Positions 30,511-41,219 of a stretch of DNA of 64,000 bases are shown here, one piece after another (within the stretch, counting starts at the first letter, position 1; each line of letters begins with the position of its first letter). The DNA comes from Pontibacter coccineus (GTDB taxonomy: Bacteria; Bacteroidota; Bacteroidia; Cytophagales; Hymenobacteraceae): assembly GCF_030546575.1 (NCBI RefSeq), contig NZ_JAUOTN010000009.1, positions 124,001 to 188,000 of the forward strand. The letters run 5' to 3'. The position numbers and the translations under genes are program-made. Under the pieces are notes generated by a model, which ran no database searches, was not told where the DNA came from, and saw only the letters and a program-made list of their open reading frames with translations.

Positions 30511-30879
30511 AATCTTGCCTATGCCATTAGGTGCGGTAGGATTGCCTGCTTTCCTGGAGGATACAGGTGCATTCAAACACACGAAGATAAGGTGGTTTAG
30601 GCTACATAGCTAAAACAGGTTATATGATTTATTCGATCTCTGCAGGCGGATCCAAAAATAAGAAGCGCTGACTTCTACCCATCGGTTTGGAAAGCAATGT
30701 GCCATCTCCGGCCTGGCAGGCAGAGAGCAACTTCAAGGTCTCTGATCTACTGCTTAAAACCGCCTGTCATGCTACGCCCGCATATGCCCTGAATAGGTGT
30801 CATTCGGCTCCGGAACCTTTTATGGATTAGATAAGTAAAACTCAATTAAGTGCATGTTAATAGTAATATAGTAAAATTT
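30511..30879 (+). other. Upstream region of the urease operon
   Basis: No gene is supported. The 369 bases separate the divergent TRIC gene from the urease operon and should contain the operon promoter. The last 60 bases are AT-rich. No metal-responsive operator could be recognised. Confidence 0.4.
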
Positions 30880-31305
30880 ATGTTTATACGTTTAACAGGT
30901 ATATTTCTTTTAATTGCACTAAGCCCCCCCTCGGCCATACCTCTCCATGCACAGAAAGCACCCGACTACGATTGCTGCCTCAAGCTGAATACCAATGGCA
31001 TAGAAGCCACTTCTCCACGATCTATGGGCCGGAGCCAGGTATGGGTAGCCGTAACAAAGAATTCCCCCGGCACATTGGGCATCGATCATACACAAAACAC
31101 CCCTTTTGACATAAGCCCGCGCCGCCTACAGATGCTGGACCAGGCGCAGCTATCGACCCGCGCCTGTAAAATAGACAAAGCACTGCTTCAACCTTTCTTC
31201 ACCTATACCAGGATAAGCCTGAATTCACAGACCACAGTCGACAAGTACTGGAAAATTGATGGGCAGCGGGGGGCGCTCACCGCTCAGTCTCCAACGTTTC
31301 TGTAA
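30880..31305 (+). CDS. Small predicted secreted protein heading the urease operon
   Basis: From ATG 30880 the protein has 141 residues, with a signal peptide (FIRLTGIFLLIALSPPSAIP, then LHAQ). The mature part is polar, with a Cys-Cys pair near its start (DYDCCLKLN) and one further Cys. No known domain is recognised. It ends 24 bp before ureA and runs in the same direction, so it is probably the first gene of the urease operon. A GTG at 30850 gives a longer but less signal-like N-terminus. A periplasmic role connected with urease or nickel is possible but only suggested by position. Confidence 0.55.
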   Translation: MFIRLTGIFLLIALSPPSAIPLHAQKAPDYDCCLKLNTNGIEATSPRSMGRSQVWVAVTKNSPGTLGIDHTQNTPFDISPRRLQMLDQAQLSTRACKIDKALLQPFFTYTRISLNSQTTVDKYWKIDGQRGALTAQSPTFL

Positions 31306-31329: not shown

Positions 31330-31635
31330 ATGCACTTAAATCCTGTAGAACACGAAAAGCTGATGCTCCACCTGGCGGGGGAGTTAGCAGCAAAAAGGCT
31401 TAAAAGAGGCGTAAAGCTAAACTACCCTGAGTCTATCGCCTATATCTGCGGCAACCTGATGGAGGAAGCGCGCGATGGGAAGAAAACCGTAGCGCAACTG
31501 ATGGAGCATGGCACTACGCTCCTGAAAAAGAACCAGGTGATGGAAGGCGTGTCCGAGATGATACACTTTATACAGATAGAAGTGACATTCCCCGACGGCA
31601 TGAAACTGATCACCGTTGACAACCCCATCCGCTAG
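31330..31635 (+). CDS. ureA: Urease gamma subunit
   Basis: Structural subunit of urease, which hydrolyses urea to ammonia and carbamate. The 101 residues match the usual 100. The sequence begins [20 protein letters not shown], close to the family start, and includes [20 protein letters not shown] and VEGVSEMI-like [20 protein letters not shown]. It has no signal peptide. It is followed by ureB after 32 bp. The three-subunit arrangement (separate gamma, beta, alpha) is that of most bacteria, unlike the fused subunits of Helicobacter. Confidence 0.96.
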
Positions 31636-31667: not shown

Positions 31668-32075
31668 ATGAGACCAGGTGAATACATCCTGCAAAAGGGG
31701 CAGATAAAGGCGAATGATAAGCGAAAGATAGCGCGCATAACGGTAGCTAATACCGGAGACCGACCCATTCAGGTAGGCTCACATTACCATTTCTTCGAGA
31801 CCAACAAGGCGCTCGAGTTTGACCGGGCGGCTGCCTTCAGCATGCGACTTAACATTCCGGCCAGCACGGCCGTGCGCTTTGAGCCAGGAGAGAAGAAAGC
31901 GGTCATCCTGGTGGAGTTCGCCGGCAACAAAGTGATCAAGGGCTTCAATAACCTGACGGAAGGGGATGTGTCGAAGAAGAATGTACGGGACGCTGCACTT
32001 CAGAAGGCCCAGAAAGAAGGGTATAAGGGAGCTGGAGGAACTGCCGCGCCTGCCAAGAAAAGGAATAGAAAATAA
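31668..32075 (+). CDS. ureB: Urease beta subunit
   Basis: The beta subunit caps the alpha active-site domain in the (UreABC)3 complex. The 135-residue protein starts [11 protein letters not shown], close to the family MIPGE start. It has the conserved [19 protein letters not shown] and [15 protein letters not shown] stretches, and GFNNLTEG near its usual end. A tail of about 30 residues, rich in Lys, Ala and Gly (ending APAKKRNRK), extends beyond typical UreB. Similar basic tails occur on UreD in this operon. No signal peptide is present. Confidence 0.95.
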
Positions 32076-32098: not shown

Positions 32099-33934
32099 AT
32101 GGCAAACTGGAACAGACGCGAATGGATAAAGGTAGTGGGGCTTTCTACGGCCGGACTCTCACTGCTTGGCTTCGAGGGGTTGGGAGGTGACTCCTCTTCG
32201 GTGATGTACGTAGATGGGGAACTCTTTATACCACGAGACCGCTATGCGGCGCTCTTTGGCCCTACCACGGGTGATAAGGTGCGACTGGCAGATACAGAGC
32301 TCTTCATCCAGATTGAGAAGGATTTTAACGTATACGGCGACGAAAACAAGTTCGGCGGTGGCAAAACCATCCGCGACGGCATGGGCCAATCGGCCGGGGC
32401 CACACAGGACGAAGTGCTGGATTTGGTGATGACCAACGCCATCATCATCGACCACTGGGGAATCGTGAAGGCCGATATCGGCATTAAGAATGGCAAAATA
32501 GTGGGGATTGGAAAAGCCGGTAACCCGGACACCCAGCAGGGGGTAACCAAGGGGATGATCATTGGGGCCGCCACAGAGGTGCAGGCCTGTGCAGGTAAAA
32601 TCGTGACGGCAGGCGCCATCGACACGCACATACACTTCATCGTGCCCGAGCAGATAGAGGTAGCACTCTACAGTGGCGTTACTACCCTGATTGGTGGGGG
32701 TACAGGACCTTCGGACGGCACACTGGCCACTACCGTAACGCCAGGCAAGTGGTGGATCGAGCGCATGCTGGAGGCCTCTGAGAATACCCCAATGAACCTT
32801 GGCTTCACAGGAAAAGGCAACACCTCATCCTTCAAAGCGGCTGCCGAGCCCGTTGAGGCTGGGGCCCTTGGTCTGAAAGTTCACGAAGACTGGGGTGCCA
32901 CGCCTTCGGCTATCGATATAGCCTTGCAGGTGGCCGACAAGTATGACGTGCAGGTGGCACTTCATGCCGACAGCCTGAACGAGGCAGGCTACCTGGAAAA
33001 TACAGTAAAAGCCATCAATGGCCGGGTCATCCATTCTTACCATACCGAGGGTGCCGGTGGCGGACACGCGCCGGACATCATCAAGATCGCCATGTACCCG
33101 AACGTGCTGCCCGCCTCCACCAACCCGACCAAGCCCTATACGATCAACACGGTGGATGAGCACCTGGACATGCTCATGGCGGTACACCACCTGGACAAGA
33201 GCATCCCGGAGGACGTGGCCTTTGCCGAATCCCGTATCCGCCCGCAGACCATTGCGGCAGAAGATATTCTGCAGGACATGGGCGTGCTCAGCATCATGTC
33301 GTCTGACAGCCAGGCCATGGGCCGCATTTCTGAAACCATTCTGCGAACCTGGCAGACGGCGCACAAAATGAAAGTACAGCGCGGCCCGCTACAAGATGAC
33401 AAAGGCAAAGACAATGACAACTACCGGGTGAAGCGCTACATCGCCAAGTATACCATTAACCCAGCTATAACGCACGGTATCAGTGGGTATGTTGGCTCGG
33501 TGGAGGTCGGCAAATACGCGGACCTGGTGCTGTGGGACCCGGGCTTTTTCGGGGTGAAGCCGGAGATCATCTTTAAGAACGGGATGGCGGTGGGTGCCCG
33601 TATGGGTGACCCGAACGGGGCCATCTCCCTGCCGCAACCTGTTATCTACCGCCCCATGTACGGTTACTATGGCAGGGCGATACAAAGGAATGGCTTCAAC
33701 TTCGTTTCAGGTATCTCACTCGAGAATGGCAATATAGAGCGCCTGGGACTGGCCAAAGGCGCACTGCCCGTGAAAGGCTGCCGTAACATCTCCAAAAAAG
33801 ACATGATCCATAACAGCGCCACGCCGAAGCTGGAGGTGAACCCGGAAACCTTTGTGGTGACAGCCGATGGCCAGGTACTGACCTGCGAGCCTATGAAAGT
33901 TTTGCCAATGGCACAGCTATACTTCCTGTTCTAG
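32099..33934 (+). CDS. ureC: Urease alpha subunit with Tat-like N-terminal extension
   Basis: Catalytic subunit. All nickel-site residues are visible: DTHIHF (two His), [12 protein letters not shown] (bridging Lys and a His), [10 protein letters not shown] (His), [16 protein letters not shown] (His) and SSDSQAMGR (Asp). At 611 residues it is about 40 longer than usual. The extra first 35 residues read [20 protein letters not shown], then SLLG, matching a twin-arginine signal (RR then a hydrophobic run). No clear A-x-A cleavage site follows. The start at 32099 has AGGAAACC upstream and lies 23 bp after ureB. An internal ATG at 32204 would restore the usual length but has no such site. The flap reads AVHHLD, so the usual Cys before HH is Val (residue 362). 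Confidence 0.95.
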
Positions 33935-33996: not shown

Positions 33997-34476
33997 ATGC
34001 TACTAATAGAAAAGGTCATCGGAAACCTCGCAGGTATAGCAACAGGCGGCCGCTTGATTGATTTGCTGGATCTGGATTGGTTTGATACAGGCAAAACAAT
34101 TTTACGGAAACGAACAAGAGCGGGCAATGAAGTAGGTATACGAAAAGACTCGACCCCGCTGGAAGATGGTGACATCCTGTACATGGACGCGGAGCAGGTA
34201 ATCGTGGTCAACATAATCCCCTGCGAATGCATCGTGTTTAAACCCGACAGCTTCAAAGACATGGGTACCGTTTGTTTCGAGATCGGCAACAAACACATTC
34301 CCATTTTCATCAACGAGGAAGCCGAGGTACTGGTGGAGTTTGAGAATCCGCTCTATAGGTTGCTGGAGCGCTCGGGTTACGAGCCACGGCGGGAGGTACG
34401 CAAGCTGCTGAAAACACACGCGCTGATCGTGCGCCGGCATGGAAATAACTACACCAGGAAAATAACCATTAAATAA
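33997..34476 (+). CDS. ureE: Urease accessory nickel chaperone UreE (first copy)
   Basis: Delivers nickel to the UreDFG-apourease complex. The 159 residues have an N-terminal peptide-binding domain (to about 75) and a metal-binding domain. The metal-binding domain has FEIGNKHIPIF, with the conserved metal-binding His after G-N-K. A C-E-C motif (NIIPCECIVF) lies just before it. The C-terminus lacks the His-rich tail of enterobacterial UreE and instead is basic (RRHGNNYTRKITIK). It lies between ureC and ureF. A paralogue is present at 37909-38406. Confidence 0.93.
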   Translation: MLLIEKVIGNLAGIATGGRLIDLLDLDWFDTGKTILRKRTRAGNEVGIRKDSTPLEDGDILYMDAEQVIVVNIIPCECIVFKPDSFKDMGTVCFEIGNKHIPIFINEEAEVLVEFENPLYRLLERSGYEPRREVRKLLKTHALIVRRHGNNYTRKITIK

Positions 34477-34485
34477 GGGACCGCT

Positions 34486-35172
34486 ATGCAACCACTGTTA
34501 ACCCTTTTACAGATTAACGACTCGATGTTTCCGATCGGGAGCTTCACCCATTCCTATGGACTGGAGTCTTACGTGAGCCAAGGTATAGTGAAAGACACGC
34601 CTTCGGCTACCGTGTATGCCAGAAACATGCTGCGTCACAGCATATACTACAACGACGCTGCCTTTTTGCAGAAGACATGGGTCTTGCTGGAGGCCAGAAA
34701 GTCGGTGCGGGAACTGCAGAAGCTGGACGAACTGATCACGGCGCTCAAGGTCCCTTTTGAGATAAGGGATGCCAGTAGGAAGCTGGCGATCCGTTTTCTG
34801 AAGCTGACACAGGAACTGCACCCGGTGAAAAGGTGCAGTAACTACCTGGCCAAAATTCAGGAGGGCGAGCTGCACGGGCACTACGCCGTGGCCTTCGCCC
34901 TCTATGCGCATGCCAGCGGCATCACCCTAAAAGACGCCCTGCTCGCCTTCTACTACAACATGCTCAACGGCATTGTGACCAATTGCGCCAAACTGGTGCC
35001 CATCGGCCAGGGCGATGCGCAGAAGATCCTCTTCGACCTGCAGCCAACCATCATGCAATTGGTGGATGAGCAGGAAAACATGGATGAGGAGATGGTCGGG
35101 CTTTGTTGCATCGGGCAGGAGATCCGCTGCATGCAGCACGAAAAGCAATATTCAAGACTATACATTTCATAA
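34486..35172 (+). CDS. ureF: Urease accessory protein UreF
   Basis: UreF binds UreD and UreG and gates nickel insertion. The 228 residues show the all-helical family pattern: the N-terminal [20 protein letters not shown] with the conserved G-x-F-x-x-S-x-G-L-E, and [20 protein letters not shown]. They also have [20 protein letters not shown], with the family Gly/Gln region. The length is normal. It begins 9 bp after ureE and is followed by ureG after 28 bp. Confidence 0.94.
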
Positions 35173-35200: not shown

Positions 35201-35827
35201 ATGTCGAAGAAACATGTAAGAATTGGGGTAGCAGGTCCCGTCGGATCGGGAAAGACGGCTTTGATCGAGCGGCTGACCCGGAAGATGAGTGGAGAGTACA
35301 GCATCTGTGTCGTGACCAACGACGTGTACACCCGCGAGGACGCTGAGTTTTTGACCAAAAACTCCTGCCTGCCCGCCGACCGCATCATGGGTGTAGAGAC
35401 AGGGGGCTGCCCGCATACCGCTATACGCGAGGATGCCTCCATGAACATTGAGGCGGTGGAAGAACTGGTGGAGCGCCACCCTGACACCGAAATCGTTTTT
35501 GTGGAGAGTGGTGGCGATAACCTGTCTGCCACCTTCAGCCCGGACCTGGCCGACGTGACCATTTTCGTGATTGACGTGGCTGAAGGCGACAAGATGCCCC
35601 GCAAAGGAGGCCCCGGCATCACCCGCTCCGATCTGCTGATCATCAACAAAACCGACCTGGCCCCCTACGTGAACGCTGACCTGGCCATGATGGACCGTGA
35701 CTCGAAGAAGATGCGTGGCGAGCGCCCATTCATCTTCACGAACCTGATGAAGCTGGAAGGCCTGGATGAGGTGATCAACTGGATCAAGACGTATGCTCTA
35801 CTAGAAAAAACGGAGGCGCATGCATAG
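35201..35827 (+). CDS. ureG: Urease accessory GTPase UreG
   Basis: SIMIBI-class GTPase that carries nickel to the activation complex. From ATG 35201 the product is 208 residues, the usual length; the frame is open further upstream inside ureF but that part is not UreG. Motifs: P-loop [17 protein letters not shown], the nickel-binding C-P-H in [16 protein letters not shown], switch region [14 protein letters not shown], and the guanine-specificity NKTD ([11 protein letters not shown]). Its 3' end overlaps ureD by 8 bases. Confidence 0.96.
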
Positions 35828-36806
35828 TACTATCAAAGTAAACGCGGAGCGGGAAGGGAAGCGAACGGTCCTGAAAGGGAGCAGCTGTAATGCCCCCTAT
35901 AAAGTGCTCCATTATGGCTCCCGGCATTTCCACGAGCACCTGGAGCTGATCATGATGAGTGCCTCTCCGGGTATCATGGATGGGGATGCGATTGACATCG
36001 AGGTAAATGTGCATGAAGGGGCGCATCTGAAATTTTTCACCCAGTCGTTTGGTAAGCTGCACCCCATGGAGAAGGGGGCGATCCAGCGAACGAACGTGCA
36101 GGTGAAGAAGGATGGCATTTACAAGTACACGCCCTTCCCGGTTATCCCTTTCGCAAACTCCAGGTTCAAGCTGTACAACGAGATCCACCTGGCTGAAAGT
36201 GCTACCCTGATCTGGGGGGACATCATTGCTTCGGGGCGGGTGCACTCGGGGGAGTCGTTTAAGTTTACGCGCCTGCACAGCGTCACCAAGGTATACTGCA
36301 ACAAAAAGCTCGTGCTGCTGGATAACCAATTGCTGGAGCCCGGCACCCAGCCTTACGACTCCATTCTGTTCTACGAACACTATACCCACCAGGCCACCCT
36401 GCTCTATGTGTCGCCTTTTGCCGCTGAGTTGAAAGTGGAGTTGGATGAGATACTGGCTGTCAGGTATGAGGAAATCACCTTCGGCTTTACGCAGTGCGCG
36501 CCCAATGCGGTCATAATTAGAGCATTGGGGCATGAAGGAGGGGCCATGCACGACTGGCTGAATGCCATTGGGCAGCTGTGCTGGGAGTTTACGCTGCACA
36601 AGCAGTGGCTTGACGAAAGCGAGCCGGAGGAGCAAACACCTAAACGGCAAGCTGCAGAAGAAAGCCCTGTTGAGAAGAAGCGGCCAAAGCGCGTGAAAAA
36701 AGAAGTGACCGCAAAAGGAGCTGCCAAAAAAGCAAAGGCTATACCTGAGGCACCTGCTGAGGAAGGGTTGAAAGAAGTGCTAGCCGAAGCTGTGATTGAG
36801 AAGTAA
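35820..36806 (+). CDS. ureD: Urease accessory protein UreD with a basic C-terminal tail
   Basis: UreD (UreH) is the scaffold that docks UreF and UreG on apourease and may conduct nickel. The first 270 residues are family-like: [20 protein letters not shown], and the GD-x-I-D-I-x-V region ([15 protein letters not shown]). [13 protein letters not shown] and [14 protein letters not shown] are also family-like. After about residue 268 comes a 60-residue tail rich in Lys, Glu, Ala and Pro ([20 protein letters not shown]), which is not part of the usual family and is probably disordered. It overlaps ureG by 8 bases and hypA follows after 9 bp. Confidence 0.92.
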
Positions 36807-36815
36807 GCAGGAGCC

Positions 36816-37160
36816 ATGCACGAGATCTCGATTGTACGAAACGTCTTTGAAACACTGCAGCAAACCTACCCCGACAAGTTTGAGCGGATCACGAAGGTGC
36901 AGATCGAGGCGGGGCTGCTCAGCAACATTCAGCCCATCCTGATCCAGAACGCTTTTGAGGCGCTGATCATGGAAGAGCCGGGACTGGCAGATATCGAGTT
37001 GGAGGTGCTGTTGCTGCCCATTATTGCCCACTGTGCTGCCTGCAACAGAGACTTTGAGGTGAAGCGGCACAAGTTTGTATGCGACTGCGGTACTCCCACC
37101 AAGAACATTGTGCAGGGGCAAGAACTGCAGATCAGCCGGATTGAATTTTTAGAAAAGTAA
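36816..37160 (+). CDS. hypA: Nickel metallochaperone HypA
   Basis: HypA binds nickel at its N-terminal Met-His and passes it to hydrogenase or, in Helicobacter, to urease. The 114 residues start MHEISIVRNVFETLQQ, with the required MHE. The zinc site is formed by C-A-A-C (HCAACNRDF) and C-D-C (FVCDCGTP); the second pair is C-x-C instead of the common C-x-x-C. It lies between ureD and hypB. No hydrogenase genes occur in the window, so a role in urease activation is the best reading. Confidence 0.92.
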   Translation: MHEISIVRNVFETLQQTYPDKFERITKVQIEAGLLSNIQPILIQNAFEALIMEEPGLADIELEVLLLPIIAHCAACNRDFEVKRHKFVCDCGTPTKNIVQGQELQISRIEFLEK

Positions 37161-37185: not shown

Positions 37186-37902
37186 ATGAGTACACCATCC
37201 ACACCTAAAAGCAACAGAATGCCCGTTGGGGCTGTACAGTGCGACAACACTACCCTGAATTTGTTAAAAGCCAACGACTTCGTAGCCAAGGCCATTCGCG
37301 ACCGGCTGCCCGAAGTGCTGGTGATCAACGTGTGTTCCTCTCCCGGGAGCGGCAAAACCACTCTGATGCAGGAAACCGGCAAGCGCCTGAGCGACAAGCT
37401 GAACCTGGCCGTGCTGGTGGGCGACCCGGAAACGGACCGCGATGCCGTGCGCATGAAAGAAGTGGGCATCAACGCGCTTCAGATCGTAACGGGCGGCATG
37501 TGCCACATCGAGGCCCAGATGATCCTGCAGGCACTCGACCACATTGATTTAACGGGCGTGGACCTGCTCTTCATCGAGAACGTAGGCAACCTGGTGTGCC
37601 CGGCCGCCTTCGATCTGGGTGAGGACATCCGCGTTACGGTGCTGGCCGCCACGGAAGGGGACGATAAACCGAAGAAGTACCCGCGCATGTTCCTCACCAG
37701 CGAGCTGATGGTGGTGTCCAAGGCGGACCTGCTCCCTTACGTACCCTTCTCGGTAGAGGCCGTTACGCAGGATGCCCGGGAGGTAAACCCCACTATTGAG
37801 GTAATGACCATCAGTAGCCTGAAAGGCGACGGGATGGACGAATGGTGCGACTGGCTGCTTTCAAAGGTCGCGGAAAAGAAAGCCAGGCTGGCAACTGCTT
37901 AA
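37186..37902 (+). CDS. hypB: Nickel GTPase HypB
   Basis: SIMIBI GTPase working with HypA in nickel delivery. The 238 residues include P-loop NVCSSPGSGKTTLMQET, the metal and switch motif IVTGGMCHIEAQMI (C-H), LLFIENVGNLVCPAAFDLGE and the specificity motif VVSKADLLPYV. The N-terminus has no His-rich nickel-storage stretch. It starts 25 bp after hypA and ends 6 bp before the second ureE. HypAB embedded among urease genes supports a shared nickel route. Confidence 0.94.
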   Translation: MSTPSTPKSNRMPVGAVQCDNTTLNLLKANDFVAKAIRDRLPEVLVINVCSSPGSGKTTLMQETGKRLSDKLNLAVLVGDPETDRDAVRMKEVGINALQIVTGGMCHIEAQMILQALDHIDLTGVDLLFIENVGNLVCPAAFDLGEDIRVTVLAATEGDDKPKKYPRMFLTSELMVVSKADLLPYVPFSVEAVTQDAREVNPTIEVMTISSLKGDGMDEWCDWLLSKVAEKKARLATA

Positions 37903-37908
37903 TCCGGC

Positions 37909-38406
37909 ATGGCGACCGACCGCTCCAAACTGGCGGAGCCCCTTGTCGTAACGGAGGCGCTTGTAAATGATCAGGAACTGGGTGGCCGCACGATCGACTT
38001 TTTCGAGATAGAGTGGTACGAGGCTTCCAAGTCCCGCATGAAAAAGAAGACGCAGGCAGGTATAGAAGTGCTGGTGGACAAGGTGAACAGAAGTGCTTTT
38101 GAAGACGGGGACTTGCTATACCTGTCCGAAAGCCGGGCTATCCTGTTGAAGATAAAGCCCTGTGACTGTGTGGTGCTGCGTCCCCGAAGTCTGCAGGAAG
38201 TGGGCACCATCTGCTTTGAGATCGGCAACAAGCACGTGCCAATTTTCATCACGGATGAGAATGAGGTATGTGTAGCCTACGATGCCCCGCTGTACCAGTT
38301 GTTGCAGAGCGGCGGCTTCAAGATGGAGATAGAAGAGCGGGTGCTGCACCCTTCGCAAATGATCAAGGCCTATGGCAACAATCGGCGGGAGCGGGCAGCA
38401 ATTTAG
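37909..38406 (+). CDS. Second UreE-like nickel chaperone
   Basis: The 165-residue protein is a clear paralogue of the UreE at 33997-34476. It has GTICFEIGNKHVPIF with the same metal-binding His, preceded by C-D-C in IKPCDCVVLRP, and the same length of peptide-binding domain (FFEIEWYEASKSRMKKKTQA). The C-terminus is basic and lacks a His-rich tail. It starts 6 bp after hypB. The pair may serve two nickel routes (UreG and HypB), or one may hand nickel from the adjacent importer; the division of labour is not shown by the sequence. Confidence 0.88.
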   Translation: MATDRSKLAEPLVVTEALVNDQELGGRTIDFFEIEWYEASKSRMKKKTQAGIEVLVDKVNRSAFEDGDLLYLSESRAILLKIKPCDCVVLRPRSLQEVGTICFEIGNKHVPIFITDENEVCVAYDAPLYQLLQSGGFKMEIEERVLHPSQMIKAYGNNRRERAAI

Positions 38407-38416
38407 TGAAGCGTAT

Positions 38417-39451
38417 ATGACGTATTTAAATGAAATGATAGCTGTTCGACTTGTCGTGGCTGTGTGTGCGAGTTTGCTGCTGAACGCCTGTAATAGCGAG
38501 CACGGAGAAGGTATGGCAACAGCGGCTGACGCGATTGTCGTGACAGATATACGGGGCAAAGAGGTGCGGCTGGGCGAACCTGCCAAACGGGTGATCGTGC
38601 TATACCAGGGAGCGCTGGATGGCATGTACATGCTGAACGCGGAGCATACCGTGGTAGGTATACAGAACAACATCTACACCAATCCCGAGACCTTTAAGTA
38701 TTTCAGCAAACTGGACCCCCGCATCGCCAGAAAAGAAATGCCCGCCCCGGGTAACTGGGAAACCTCCACCAACATCGAAAGTGTGCTGTCGCTCAAGCCA
38801 GACCTGGTGATCATTGCCTCGGGGCAGACCGACGCCATCCGCTTGCTGGAAAGCCTGGGCATTCCGGTGTTTGCGGTGTCGCCGCAGAACAACGAGCAAT
38901 TGTTCAAAGAGATCGGAAACATCGGCAAACTGACCGGTACGCAGGAGCGGGCAATGGAATTGCTGGCCTATACCCGCCGCAAGCTCGACGAGATAGCGGA
39001 AGCGACAGATCACATCAAGCAGAAAAAATCGGTGTACTATGCCTGGTCAGGGGGCCGGATCTATTCTACCTCGGGACAGAACAGCCGCATGGCGGAGTGC
39101 TTTCTGCTGGCGGGGGTCAACAACGCCTGCACCTTTGAGATAGACCAGCCCAACATCAACCCGGAAACGCTGATTTCGTGGGACCCGGACCTGATTTTGC
39201 TTTGGAGCACCGACCCGCAGGAGCTGTATGACAAAAAAGAACTGGCAGTGCTCCAGGCGGTCAGAAACAAAAACGTGCACGTGCTCGAGCCGCCCTTTTT
39301 CTACGACCCGCATACCTTAAAAATTATGTACGCCGCCATCGAGCTGCACAACGTCGCTTATGGCACAAACAAGAACTTCGACCTCGAAGAGAACCGAAGA
39401 GACATCATGACAAACTTGTACGGCGCCAAAGCCACTGTCTTACTCGAATGA
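38417..39451 (+). CDS. Metal (probably nickel) ABC transporter substrate-binding lipoprotein
   Basis: The 344-residue product has a lipoprotein signal (VVAVCASLLLNAC, lipobox LNAC). A class III periplasmic binding fold of the BtuF/FepB type follows: VTDIRGKEVRLGEPAKRVIV, and LSLKPDLVIIASGQTDAIRL. YYAWSGGRIYSTSGQNSRMA and WDPDLILLWS are further motifs. The start is ATG 38417, 10 bp after the second ureE; 38435 is an alternative. It overlaps the permease by 4 bases. Position in a nickel-enzyme operon suggests nickel, as free ion or chelate; the fold alone would also fit iron-siderophore or cobalamin. Confidence 0.85.
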   Translation: MTYLNEMIAVRLVVAVCASLLLNACNSEHGEGMATAADAIVVTDIRGKEVRLGEPAKRVIVLYQGALDGMYMLNAEHTVVGIQNNIYTNPETFKYFSKLDPRIARKEMPAPGNWETSTNIESVLSLKPDLVIIASGQTDAIRLLESLGIPVFAVSPQNNEQLFKEIGNIGKLTGTQERAMELLAYTRRKLDEIAEATDHIKQKKSVYYAWSGGRIYSTSGQNSRMAECFLLAGVNNACTFEIDQPNINPETLISWDPDLILLWSTDPQELYDKKELAVLQAVRNKNVHVLEPPFFYDPHTLKIMYAAIELHNVAYGTNKNFDLEENRRDIMTNLYGAKATVLLE

Positions 39452-40455
39452 GAAACGTACTGACCGGCTTCCTGATTTACGGCCTGCCCATACCGCTGCT
39501 GCTGTATTCCCTGACGGTGGGCCCGTCGCAGGGGCTGGTGTTCGCGGACTATTGGGACTGGGGCAGGGCGGCGCTGCACGGCGACATCCACGAGAGCTCG
39601 ACCAAGGTATACATGCTCAACAACATCATCGGGAATGTGCGCCTGCCCAGGGTCTTGCTCACGTTCATCATCGGGGCGGGCTTGGCATCTTCGGGTGGCG
39701 CCTTGCAAGGTATTTTCCGGAACCCGCTCGTAGACCCCTATGTGCTGGGCATTTCGTCTGGTTCGGCATTCGGGGCGGCGCTGGCCATTGCCTTTCCGCT
39801 TCTGCACATCAACGTGATGGCCTTTGTGCTGGGGGTGGCCTCTGTGGTCATGACCTATTCCTTCGCCTTCAGCAACAACAAGTCCTCTATCGTGGCGGTC
39901 ATCCTGTCGGGCATGATCGTGTCGGGAATCTTCACGGCCTCCCTGACGGTGGTGCAGTACATAAGCGACCCCTACAAGCTGCAGGCCATTGTGCAGTGGA
40001 CGATGGGCAACCTGCACCACGCCTCCTGGGACAAGCTCAACACGGCCGCGCTGCCGGTAGGTATAGGTATAGTGGGCATGTACCTGATGCGCTGGCGCCT
40101 TAACCTGCTGGCCCTGGGAGAAGAGGAGGCAAAGGCGGTGGGCGTGAACCCCACCGCCGACAAAGCCACCTTGGTCGCTCTGGCCACCCTCACCACCTCC
40201 ACCTCGGTGGCAGCTGCGGGCGTCATCAGCATGTACGGGCTTTTTATACCGCACCTCACCCGCATGATGGTGGGTCCGGACAACCGGAAGGCCATGCCGG
40301 CCAACATTCTCTTCGGCGGGTCCTTTCTTGTCATCATCGACAATTTCTCGCGCTCGCTGATGGACTTCGAAATACCGATCGGCATTTTCACGATGCTGCT
40401 GGGGGCTCCTTTCTTTCTCTTTTTAATGAAGAAAAACAAAATCAACTGGGTATGA
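39448..40455 (+). CDS. FecCD/BtuC-type ABC transporter permease
   Basis: The 335-residue inner-membrane protein has about 9-10 helices and the family signature GASLASSGGALQ-like GLASSGGALQGIFRNPLVDP, followed by YVLGISSGSAFGAALAIAF. The coupling region near the end is YGLFIPHLTRMMVGPDNRKA. It forms the channel for the importer between the binding lipoprotein and the ATPase, with 4-base overlaps (ATGA) on both sides. The start used gives a normal first helix. Confidence 0.92.
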   Translation: MRNVLTGFLIYGLPIPLLLYSLTVGPSQGLVFADYWDWGRAALHGDIHESSTKVYMLNNIIGNVRLPRVLLTFIIGAGLASSGGALQGIFRNPLVDPYVLGISSGSAFGAALAIAFPLLHINVMAFVLGVASVVMTYSFAFSNNKSSIVAVILSGMIVSGIFTASLTVVQYISDPYKLQAIVQWTMGNLHHASWDKLNTAALPVGIGIVGMYLMRWRLNLLALGEEEAKAVGVNPTADKATLVALATLTTSTSVAAAGVISMYGLFIPHLTRMMVGPDNRKAMPANILFGGSFLVIIDNFSRSLMDFEIPIGIFTMLLGAPFFLFLMKKNKINWV

Positions 40456-41219
40456 CAGAGGCAGCGATAGAAGTAGAAAACCTCAGCTTCGGGTATGGCA
40501 AAACGCCGATACTGGAGCAAGTGCAGGTGGCTTTTCCGAGTAATCGCTTTTCGGTGCTGTTGGGCCGTAACGGGAGTGGCAAGTCCACGCTCTTCAACAT
40601 CATGGCGGGCCTGCAGAAGTACCGGCACGGCTCCGTGAAACTGATGGGGAAGGAGCGCAGTAACATGTCTTTCTCGGACTGCGCCCGCGTGCTCGGGTTT
40701 CTGCCGCAGTTCCATAAATCGGTGTTTCCCTTCCAGGTAAAGGATGTAGTGCTGACCGGAAGAGCCGCTTTCTCCGCCTTCAGCCCCAGAAGGAGCGACA
40801 TGGAAAAGGTAGGGCAGGCCCTGGAAGAGCTGGGCATCAGCCACCTGGCGGAAAGACCCTATACCGAGCTCTCGGGCGGAGAGCAGCAACTGGTGATGAT
40901 CGCACGGGTGCTGGTGCAGAATCCCCGCATTATTCTCCTCGACGAGCCCACCAACCACCTCGACATCTATTACCAGACCTATGTGCTGGAGAAGCTCAAA
41001 AAACTGACGGAGAACAACCTGACGGTTATCGCCATCATGCACGACCCGAACATGGCCTTCCTGTATGCCGACCATTGCTACTTCATGAAAGACAGAACCG
41101 TGTTGACGCCCGGCGATACCTTTGACTACCAGAACGGCGCCTTTCTGGAGCATGTGTATGATGTTCGCTTTACCACTGTGCAGGTAAACGATAAAATGGT
41201 GGTGGTACCTGGCCGATAG
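40452..41219 (+). CDS. ABC transporter ATPase of the metal importer
   Basis: The 255-residue ATPase has Walker A LLGRNGSGKSTLFNIM, Q-loop LGFLPQFHKS, signature ELSGGEQQLVMIARVL, Walker B IILLDEPTNHLD and switch His IAIMHDPNMAF. This is the FepC/BtuD layout. It overlaps the permease by 4 bases and closes the operon that begins upstream of ureA. No terminator hairpin is evident directly after it. Confidence 0.94.
   Translation: MTEAAIEVENLSFGYGKTPILEQVQVAFPSNRFSVLLGRNGSGKSTLFNIMAGLQKYRHGSVKLMGKERSNMSFSDCARVLGFLPQFHKSVFPFQVKDVVLTGRAAFSAFSPRRSDMEKVGQALEELGISHLAERPYTELSGGEQQLVMIARVLVQNPRIILLDEPTNHLDIYYQTYVLEKLKKLTENNLTVIAIMHDPNMAFLYADHCYFMKDRTVLTPGDTFDYQNGAFLEHVYDVRFTTVQVNDKMVVVPGR

Follow-up and report, generated by a model that had tools for sequence, protein, structure and literature searches.

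The urease operon in the 64,000-nucleotide stretch of Pontibacter coccineus DNA analysed here (the window) is likely to encode an enzyme that is put together and receives its nickel in the cytosol before the Tat pathway carries it, folded, to the periplasm, with UreA and UreB hitchhiking on UreC. The sequence evidence comprises a conserved signal on UreC, a single clade of signal-bearing ureases, a TatC gene, partner subunits without signals, an association with porins and the lack of an adjoining urea transporter (UT). From these we infer export itself, its orientation, cleavage or anchoring of the signal, the assembly state during export and the physiological role. Bacterial ureases are generally regarded as cytosolic.

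The operon runs in the order ureA, ureB, ureC, ureE, ureF, ureG, ureD, hypA, hypB and ureE2, followed by a predicted ABC importer:

31330..31635, + strand: ureA (gamma subunit), no signal peptide on inspection of the N-terminus (PF00547)
31668..32075, + strand: ureB (beta subunit), no signal peptide, Lys/Arg-rich C-terminal tail by tail comparison (PF00699)
32099..33934, + strand: ureC, urease alpha subunit with an N-terminal Tat-like signal, 611 aa, catalytic residues conserved
33997..34476, + strand: ureE copy 1 (PF02814 over cut-off, PF05194 at cut-off, NCBIfam UreE models below cut-offs)
34486..35172, + strand: ureF (PF01730)
35201..35827, + strand: ureG (PF02492 CobW/HypB/UreG domain; position between ureF and ureD)
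35820..36806, + strand: ureD/ureH (PF01774)
36816..37160, + strand: hypA, nickel chaperone (PF01155 over cut-off; TIGR00100 54.6 bits, below the cut-off of 88.1)
37186..37902, + strand: hypB, nickel GTPase (TIGR00073 242.8 bits, cut-off 121.2)
37909..38406, + strand: ureE copy 2 (PF05194 and PF02814 over cut-offs)
38372..39451, + strand: binding protein of a predicted metal/chelate ABC importer (PF01497)
39448..40455, + strand: permease of the predicted importer (PF01032, FecCD)
40452..41219, + strand: ATPase of the predicted importer (PF00005)

The operon thus holds two different ureE genes, and two ureE matches were present at 24 of the 29 extended-type loci compared. The last 30 residues of UreB contained on average 8.8 Lys plus Arg at these 29 loci; the mean at the 28 plain loci, where some proteins are UreA-UreB fusions, was 4.7. 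Here, as in every comparison of extended with plain loci, the loci are related and hence not independent, and Fisher and rank tests, though calculated, were given no weight. Since the end of UreB runs into the start of UreC in fused ureases, the basic UreB tail may, by analogy, lie near the UreC signal. Plain ureases of another clade in the family (L156, L202-L207) carry UreA and UreB as one open frame of ~250 aa. The computed mass is 92 kDa for UreABC and 276 kDa for a (UreABC)3 trimer, which is large for a Tat cargo.

The ORF at 32099-33934 scored 932.4 bits against TIGR01792 (curated cut-off 680) and was also matched by Pfam Urease_alpha; it scored 811.7 bits to 1ejw, of the K. aerogenes type. 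It was compared with extended UreC proteins from Pontibacter, other Cytophagales, Sphingobacterium, Pedobacter and Chitinophagaceae, amounting to 28 distinct full-length sequences and, in a larger set, to 54 sequences (47 distinct, window included). Chitinophaga sp. E66 (L104, CP079103), in which ureC, ureE, ureF and ureG are fragmented, probably by sequencing error rather than decay, is not included in the totals of 28, 29 and 54 but is one of the 23 extended-urease genomes searched for TatC. Alignment revealed H177, H179, K260, H262, H289, H315, H363, H364, R379 and D403 in 28/28 extended UreC, residues that we take to be the Ni ligands, the carbamylated lysine and the catalytic residues. 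Residue 44 of window UreC aligns to residue 3 or 4 of most solved bacterial UreC chains, which makes its N-terminus about 40 residues longer than that of normal UreC. The original prediction had described a 35-residue extension; the extension exists, but its length is about 40, and 35 is the distance to an internal ATG at 32204. The following parts were distinguished:

32099..32131, + strand: n-region of the signal, residues 1-11, with RR in 54/54 sequences and never Lys
32114-32119, + strand: twin Arg codons of the UreC signal, inside the n-region
32132..32170, + strand: h-region of the signal, residues 12-24, best 15-mer hydropathy 1.5
32171..32200, + strand: variable c-region/linker, residues 25-34, possible cleavage region
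32201..32242, + strand: residues 35-48, a conserved stretch that follows the signal, with V35, G40, L42, I44 and R46 in 28/28 and variation among some added Sphingobacterium sequences

Trp4, Arg6, Arg7, Glu8, Trp9 and Lys11 were invariant across the 28 sequences, and the window motif NRREWIK follows an S/T-R-R-x-F-L-K-like twin-arginine pattern, in which RR precedes hydrophobic residues at +2 and +3 and Lys at +4, with Trp at +2 instead of Phe. According to the accessible parts of PMC7317946, the Tat motif outside the arginines is semi-conserved and not essential, and the Phe position needs hydrophobicity. The motif was also found at 26 further loci of the genus of S. multivorum, 22 of one form and four reading WNRRDWIKIVG. 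Across the 54 sequences the first arginine was always encoded by AGA and the second by CGC, AGA, CGT or CGG. Conservation of the extension in related UreC proteins had been proposed as a check on the signal, and the twin arginines were kept in all 54 extended sequences examined, from several families. Among 14 Cytophagales, pN/pS was 0.079 for residues 2-24, 0.237 for residues 25-34, 0.087 for residues 35-48 and 0.131 for the remainder (core); among all 28 the corresponding values were 0.260, 0.426, 0.169 and 0.173, so that across this broader set the core is under stronger constraint than the signal, and the c-region is still the loosest part. Indels among the 28 were confined to the n-region and the h/c-region, and two added sequences also showed a one-residue length change past the signal. 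The looser c-region and the placement of the indels indicate the layout of a signal peptide. The Tat-like signal predicted ahead of the normal UreC start is therefore real, as judged from twin arginines retained in 54/54 sequences and purifying selection on residues 2-24.

The h-region showed the weak hydrophobicity expected of Tat signals, with a hydropathy of 1.1-1.86 in the 28 extended UreC versus 1.17-1.76 in four control Tat-like signals of the same genome. We also applied a Tat-like rule of our own (RR-x, two hydrophobic residues and K/R/N/Q, followed by a run of low hydrophobicity that carries no more than one charge), which matched one of the 53 window ORFs, UreC, and 29 of 746 urease-neighbourhood ORFs, comprising 28 UreC and one GFO_IDH_MocA oxidoreductase; 16 of 200,000 shuffles of the UreC extension matched it. 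TIGR01409 gave no match at E 10 to eight extended UreC N-termini in an NCBIfam search, in which the plain UreC N-terminus of L137 served as an additional control, and PF10518 gave none to five extended UreC N-termini in a Pfam search; both models matched a Tat signal from this genome that was used as a control. PF10518 matched (E up to 1) in 50/50 genus genomes and exceeded the cut-off in 40, and the Tat pathway looks, from these matches, to be in use across the genus. A TatC gene was located in the window's genome (G000:C7:394941-395642). TatC was present in 23/23 extended-urease genomes but also in 17/18 comparison genomes, and its co-occurrence was discarded as a test for export because nearly all relatives have it. 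From the features of the signal, the UreC extension is most likely a functional Tat signal.

Extended UreC proved common to Cytophagales, Sphingobacteriaceae and Chitinophagaceae. A same-genus sample of 50 genomes contained UreC matches in 17, with the full extension at 11 loci in nine genomes. Wider overlapping samples of the family (204 genomes), order (390) and class (395), where order and class were each sampled from a larger set, added G180 (two copies), G433 and G444, and the 395 genomes of the class sample held no further extended UreC. A scan of named genomes yielded at least 17 extended loci among at least 49 UreC loci listed, the former including two of P. chinhatensis (the same as G011), nine of Sphingobacterium (one at a contig end), three of Pedobacter and one each of Chitinophaga eiseniae, Pseudoflavitalea and Chitinophaga E66; among the named-genome matches listed, L105-L136 were ordinary UreC without extension. 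Of 93 genomes from the genus to which S. multivorum belongs, 51 had a UreC match, and 40 had the extended type (39 whole, one across two contigs). In a UreC tree of 114 rows from which the extension had been trimmed, a single branch (SH-aLRT 99) set all 28 extended UreC apart from the rest, with 19 plain Bacteroidota ureases adjacent to them; within the clade, Cytophagales stood apart from Sphingobacteriaceae plus Chitinophagaceae. A 45-row tree with eight plain UreC concurred (support 100/100). This single clade in an extension-free tree suggests that the signal was probably gained once. G011, G019 and G180 (L089, L141 and L148) carry two extended-type ureases per genome, and one of the two copies in each genome belongs to a separate subclade with an intact gene for a 465-aa porin-like protein and regulators upstream.

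The surroundings of the two urease types differed. A porin, usually accompanied by a two-component system, lay directly upstream of ureA at 16/29 extended-type loci versus 0/28 plain loci; 12 of these porins were of a PF07396-related type, with L091 and L102 over the cut-off when tested and the other members assigned by homology to these two, and four were of the 465-aa type. Counted within the flanks examined, which are short at L092, L098, L145, L152 and L156, an intact porin was near the urease at 22/29 extended-type loci (16 directly upstream, five downstream and one divergent upstream) and at 4/28 plain loci, never directly upstream of ureA. These flanks contained no intact porin at 7/29 extended-type loci, the window among them, where a decayed gene precedes ureA:

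30850..31305, + strand: decayed porin-like gene, 151 codons, the counterpart of the gene found ahead of ureA in relatives; it matches the N-terminal part of a porin-like protein of 465 aa (36% over 135 aa)

Porin remnants of various lengths also lie by the extended urease in G003, G023, G029, G030, G039 and G180. The 465-aa protein had no match in Pfam and no PDB sequence match in a profile search; its name as a porin rests on gene context and a sub-threshold match to the ExtI porin model (31.9 bits, cut-off 150). Predicted structures, with a mean pLDDT of 44.6 for UreC (18-sequence alignment) and 35.5 for the 465-aa protein, were set aside as too poor. A response regulator and a histidine kinase were found upstream in 20/29 extended-type loci, and neither was found beside the urease in the window.

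Searching for UT (PF03253) in 38 chosen genomes, 23 with extended urease and 15 plain-only, we found it in 11. In nine of these (G138, G276, G497, G511, G894, G895, G896, G897 and G902) UT begins 5.0-6.5 kb downstream of the plain ureC start, the copies of G138 and G895 containing stops, and five of the nine also carry an extended urease elsewhere without UT beside it. In G455 and G901, the latter with extended urease only, UT lies near neither urease type. No UT was found beside extended ureC in the flanks examined at 29 loci, nor anywhere in the window's genome. The figure of 9/28 plain loci with UT is a biased rate, seven plain loci having been chosen after UT was seen there, and since 10 of the 15 plain-only genomes lacked any UT, its absence alone proves little. 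Taken together, the UT and porin pattern fits a periplasmic enzyme that would need passage of urea across the outer but not the inner membrane. Because the window's genome has neither UT nor an intact porin by the urease, urea there would have to take other outer-membrane routes.

The window's genome also encodes a second, plain urease (L137, G000:C8:77394-79103), whose UreC is 68% identical to window UreC. It differs from the latter in having no extension and in keeping the flap Cys described below, and its locus contains ureABC, ureF and ureD with no ureE or ureG in the 20 kb examined. L139 (G003) and L149 (G180) likewise have ureABC, ureF and ureD without ureE and ureG, and these three plain loci may borrow both from the extended-type operon.

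The export of UreABC by Tat, as originally predicted, is supported as the best reading by the invariant RR, the tripartite conservation of the signal, TatC, the unsignalled partners, the porins and the UT pattern, and the anatomy of UreC together with its genome context points to action in the periplasm. UreDEFG with HypA and HypB insert Ni and carbamate in the cytosol. In the mechanism we propose, UreABC would be assembled and loaded with nickel there, and the folded urease would cross the inner membrane via the Tat translocase, with the twin-arginine signal on UreC alone and UreA and UreB as hitchhikers. Once exported, UreC may either lose its signal by cleavage or, as originally suggested, stay anchored in the membrane; the hydropathy of the signal lies in the range of the other Tat-like signals of this genome. 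Urea would enter the periplasm through outer-membrane porins, making an inner-membrane urea transporter dispensable, and its periplasmic hydrolysis would provide ammonia for uptake and raise the periplasmic pH.

Among other explanations, the one that survives best, though unlikely, is that the extension stays uncleaved and serves as an N-terminal tether that docks UreC at the inner membrane, perhaps via TatC or lipids, with the enzyme facing the cytosol. It draws on the cleavage site, for which the original prediction had noted the lack of a clear A-x-A: none is visible in the window copy, as stated, and none was found in the Sphingobacterium copies, and the basic UreB tail could likewise bind lipid. 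By eye, however, AxA-like sites occur in 3/28 extended UreC (Chitinophaga eiseniae AYA-Q, Pseudoflavitalea AFA-Q and G444 ALA-K), tethering has no need of an RR that is strictly kept and never replaced by Lys, and the five genomes with both types have UT beside the plain urease only. A hydropathy of 1.1-1.9 is also weak for a stable membrane helix by the generally known threshold. Distinctly less probable is another conserved role, in which the extension binds UreD/F/G or a maturation chaperone and export is not its purpose; some Tat signals do bind maturation chaperones (accessible parts of PMC3316669 and PMC3712460), but such a role leaves the porin association and the UT pattern unexplained. 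A Sec rather than a Tat signal is very improbable: the n/h/c layout is common to Sec signals, but the invariant RR and the low hydropathy with Gly/Ser/Thr speak against it, and a folded enzyme that contains Ni and carbamate and whose partner subunits lack signals would presumably be hard to build from UreC threaded through unfolded. That UreC truly begins at the in-frame ATG at 32204, which the original prediction held out as a refutation, is next to impossible on comparison, since this codon (Met36) is Met in one of the 28 aligned extended UreC, that of the window, and Lys in 25, Arg in one and Trp in one, since each of the 11 extension-bearing loci of the genus Pontibacter has Met1 as its sole in-frame start upstream of the UreC match, and since residues 2-24 are under purifying selection.

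The flap of the active site also set part of the extended-type lineage apart:

33182..33184, + strand: Val362 of window UreC, at the flap site that Cys319 occupies in K. aerogenes (UreC alignment)

Cys occupied this position in 86/86 plain UreC, whereas extended UreC had Val in 15/28, these being the Cytophagales clade, and Cys in 13/28; because of the latter, the flap Cys was not taken as defining a urease alpha subunit. Val was also found in five of 26 added extended UreC, and the distribution requires at least three changes on the UreC tree. The accessible parts of PMC7433671 review kinetic and structural work on the K. aerogenes flap Cys and state that later structures ruled it out as general acid, a further reason for not taking it as defining. 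The lower total of Cys in extended UreC (mean 4.5 versus 8.7 in plain UreC) was dropped as evidence, some plain UreC having four to seven. We tentatively raise the possibility, itself rather doubtful, of a periplasmic Bacteroidota urease lineage in which Tat moves a Ni-loaded heteromer, possibly a 276-kDa (UreABC)3 with three signals, into oxidising surroundings that led to repeated loss of the flap Cys.

Compared with known systems, the window operon resembles the cytosolic UreABC plus UreDEFG of the Klebsiella aerogenes type in its subunits, catalytic residues and accessory proteins, and differs from it by the Tat-like N-terminus of about 40 residues, the flap Val, the Lys/Arg-rich UreB tail and the lack of an adjoining UT. 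Tat-exported [NiFe] hydrogenase and formate dehydrogenase offer a parallel, as they combine one signalled subunit, a hitchhiking partner and a cofactor inserted in the cytosol (accessible parts of PMC10924467); these are redox enzymes, whereas urease is a hydrolase, and no sequence relation is expected. Helicobacter pylori urease with UreI is likewise linked to urea entry and pH, but that enzyme is cytosolic and supplied by an inner-membrane urea channel (accessible parts of PMC7801526). Among titles, abstract openings and best matches in open-access PMC, we found no report of a Tat-exported urease; subscription literature lay mostly outside this scope, and earlier notice cannot be excluded. 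The portions available of PMC11327836, PMC11126151, PMC13215605 and PMC8115276 contain no mention of one, and that of PMC11126151 terms a mycobacterial UreC secreted with no mention of a Tat signal.

Current models of how urea enters, nickel is loaded and pH is controlled centre on the inner membrane, and an exported urease would separate these steps. It would also add a large nickel hydrolase to the list of Tat cargoes and raise the question of how maturation and trimer assembly relate to the size limits of Tat. Sphingobacterium includes many urease-positive species. As the extended urease is the commoner type in the Sphingobacterium genomes searched (40 of the 51 with a UreC match), nitrogen use and ureolysis in this genus may need re-reading.
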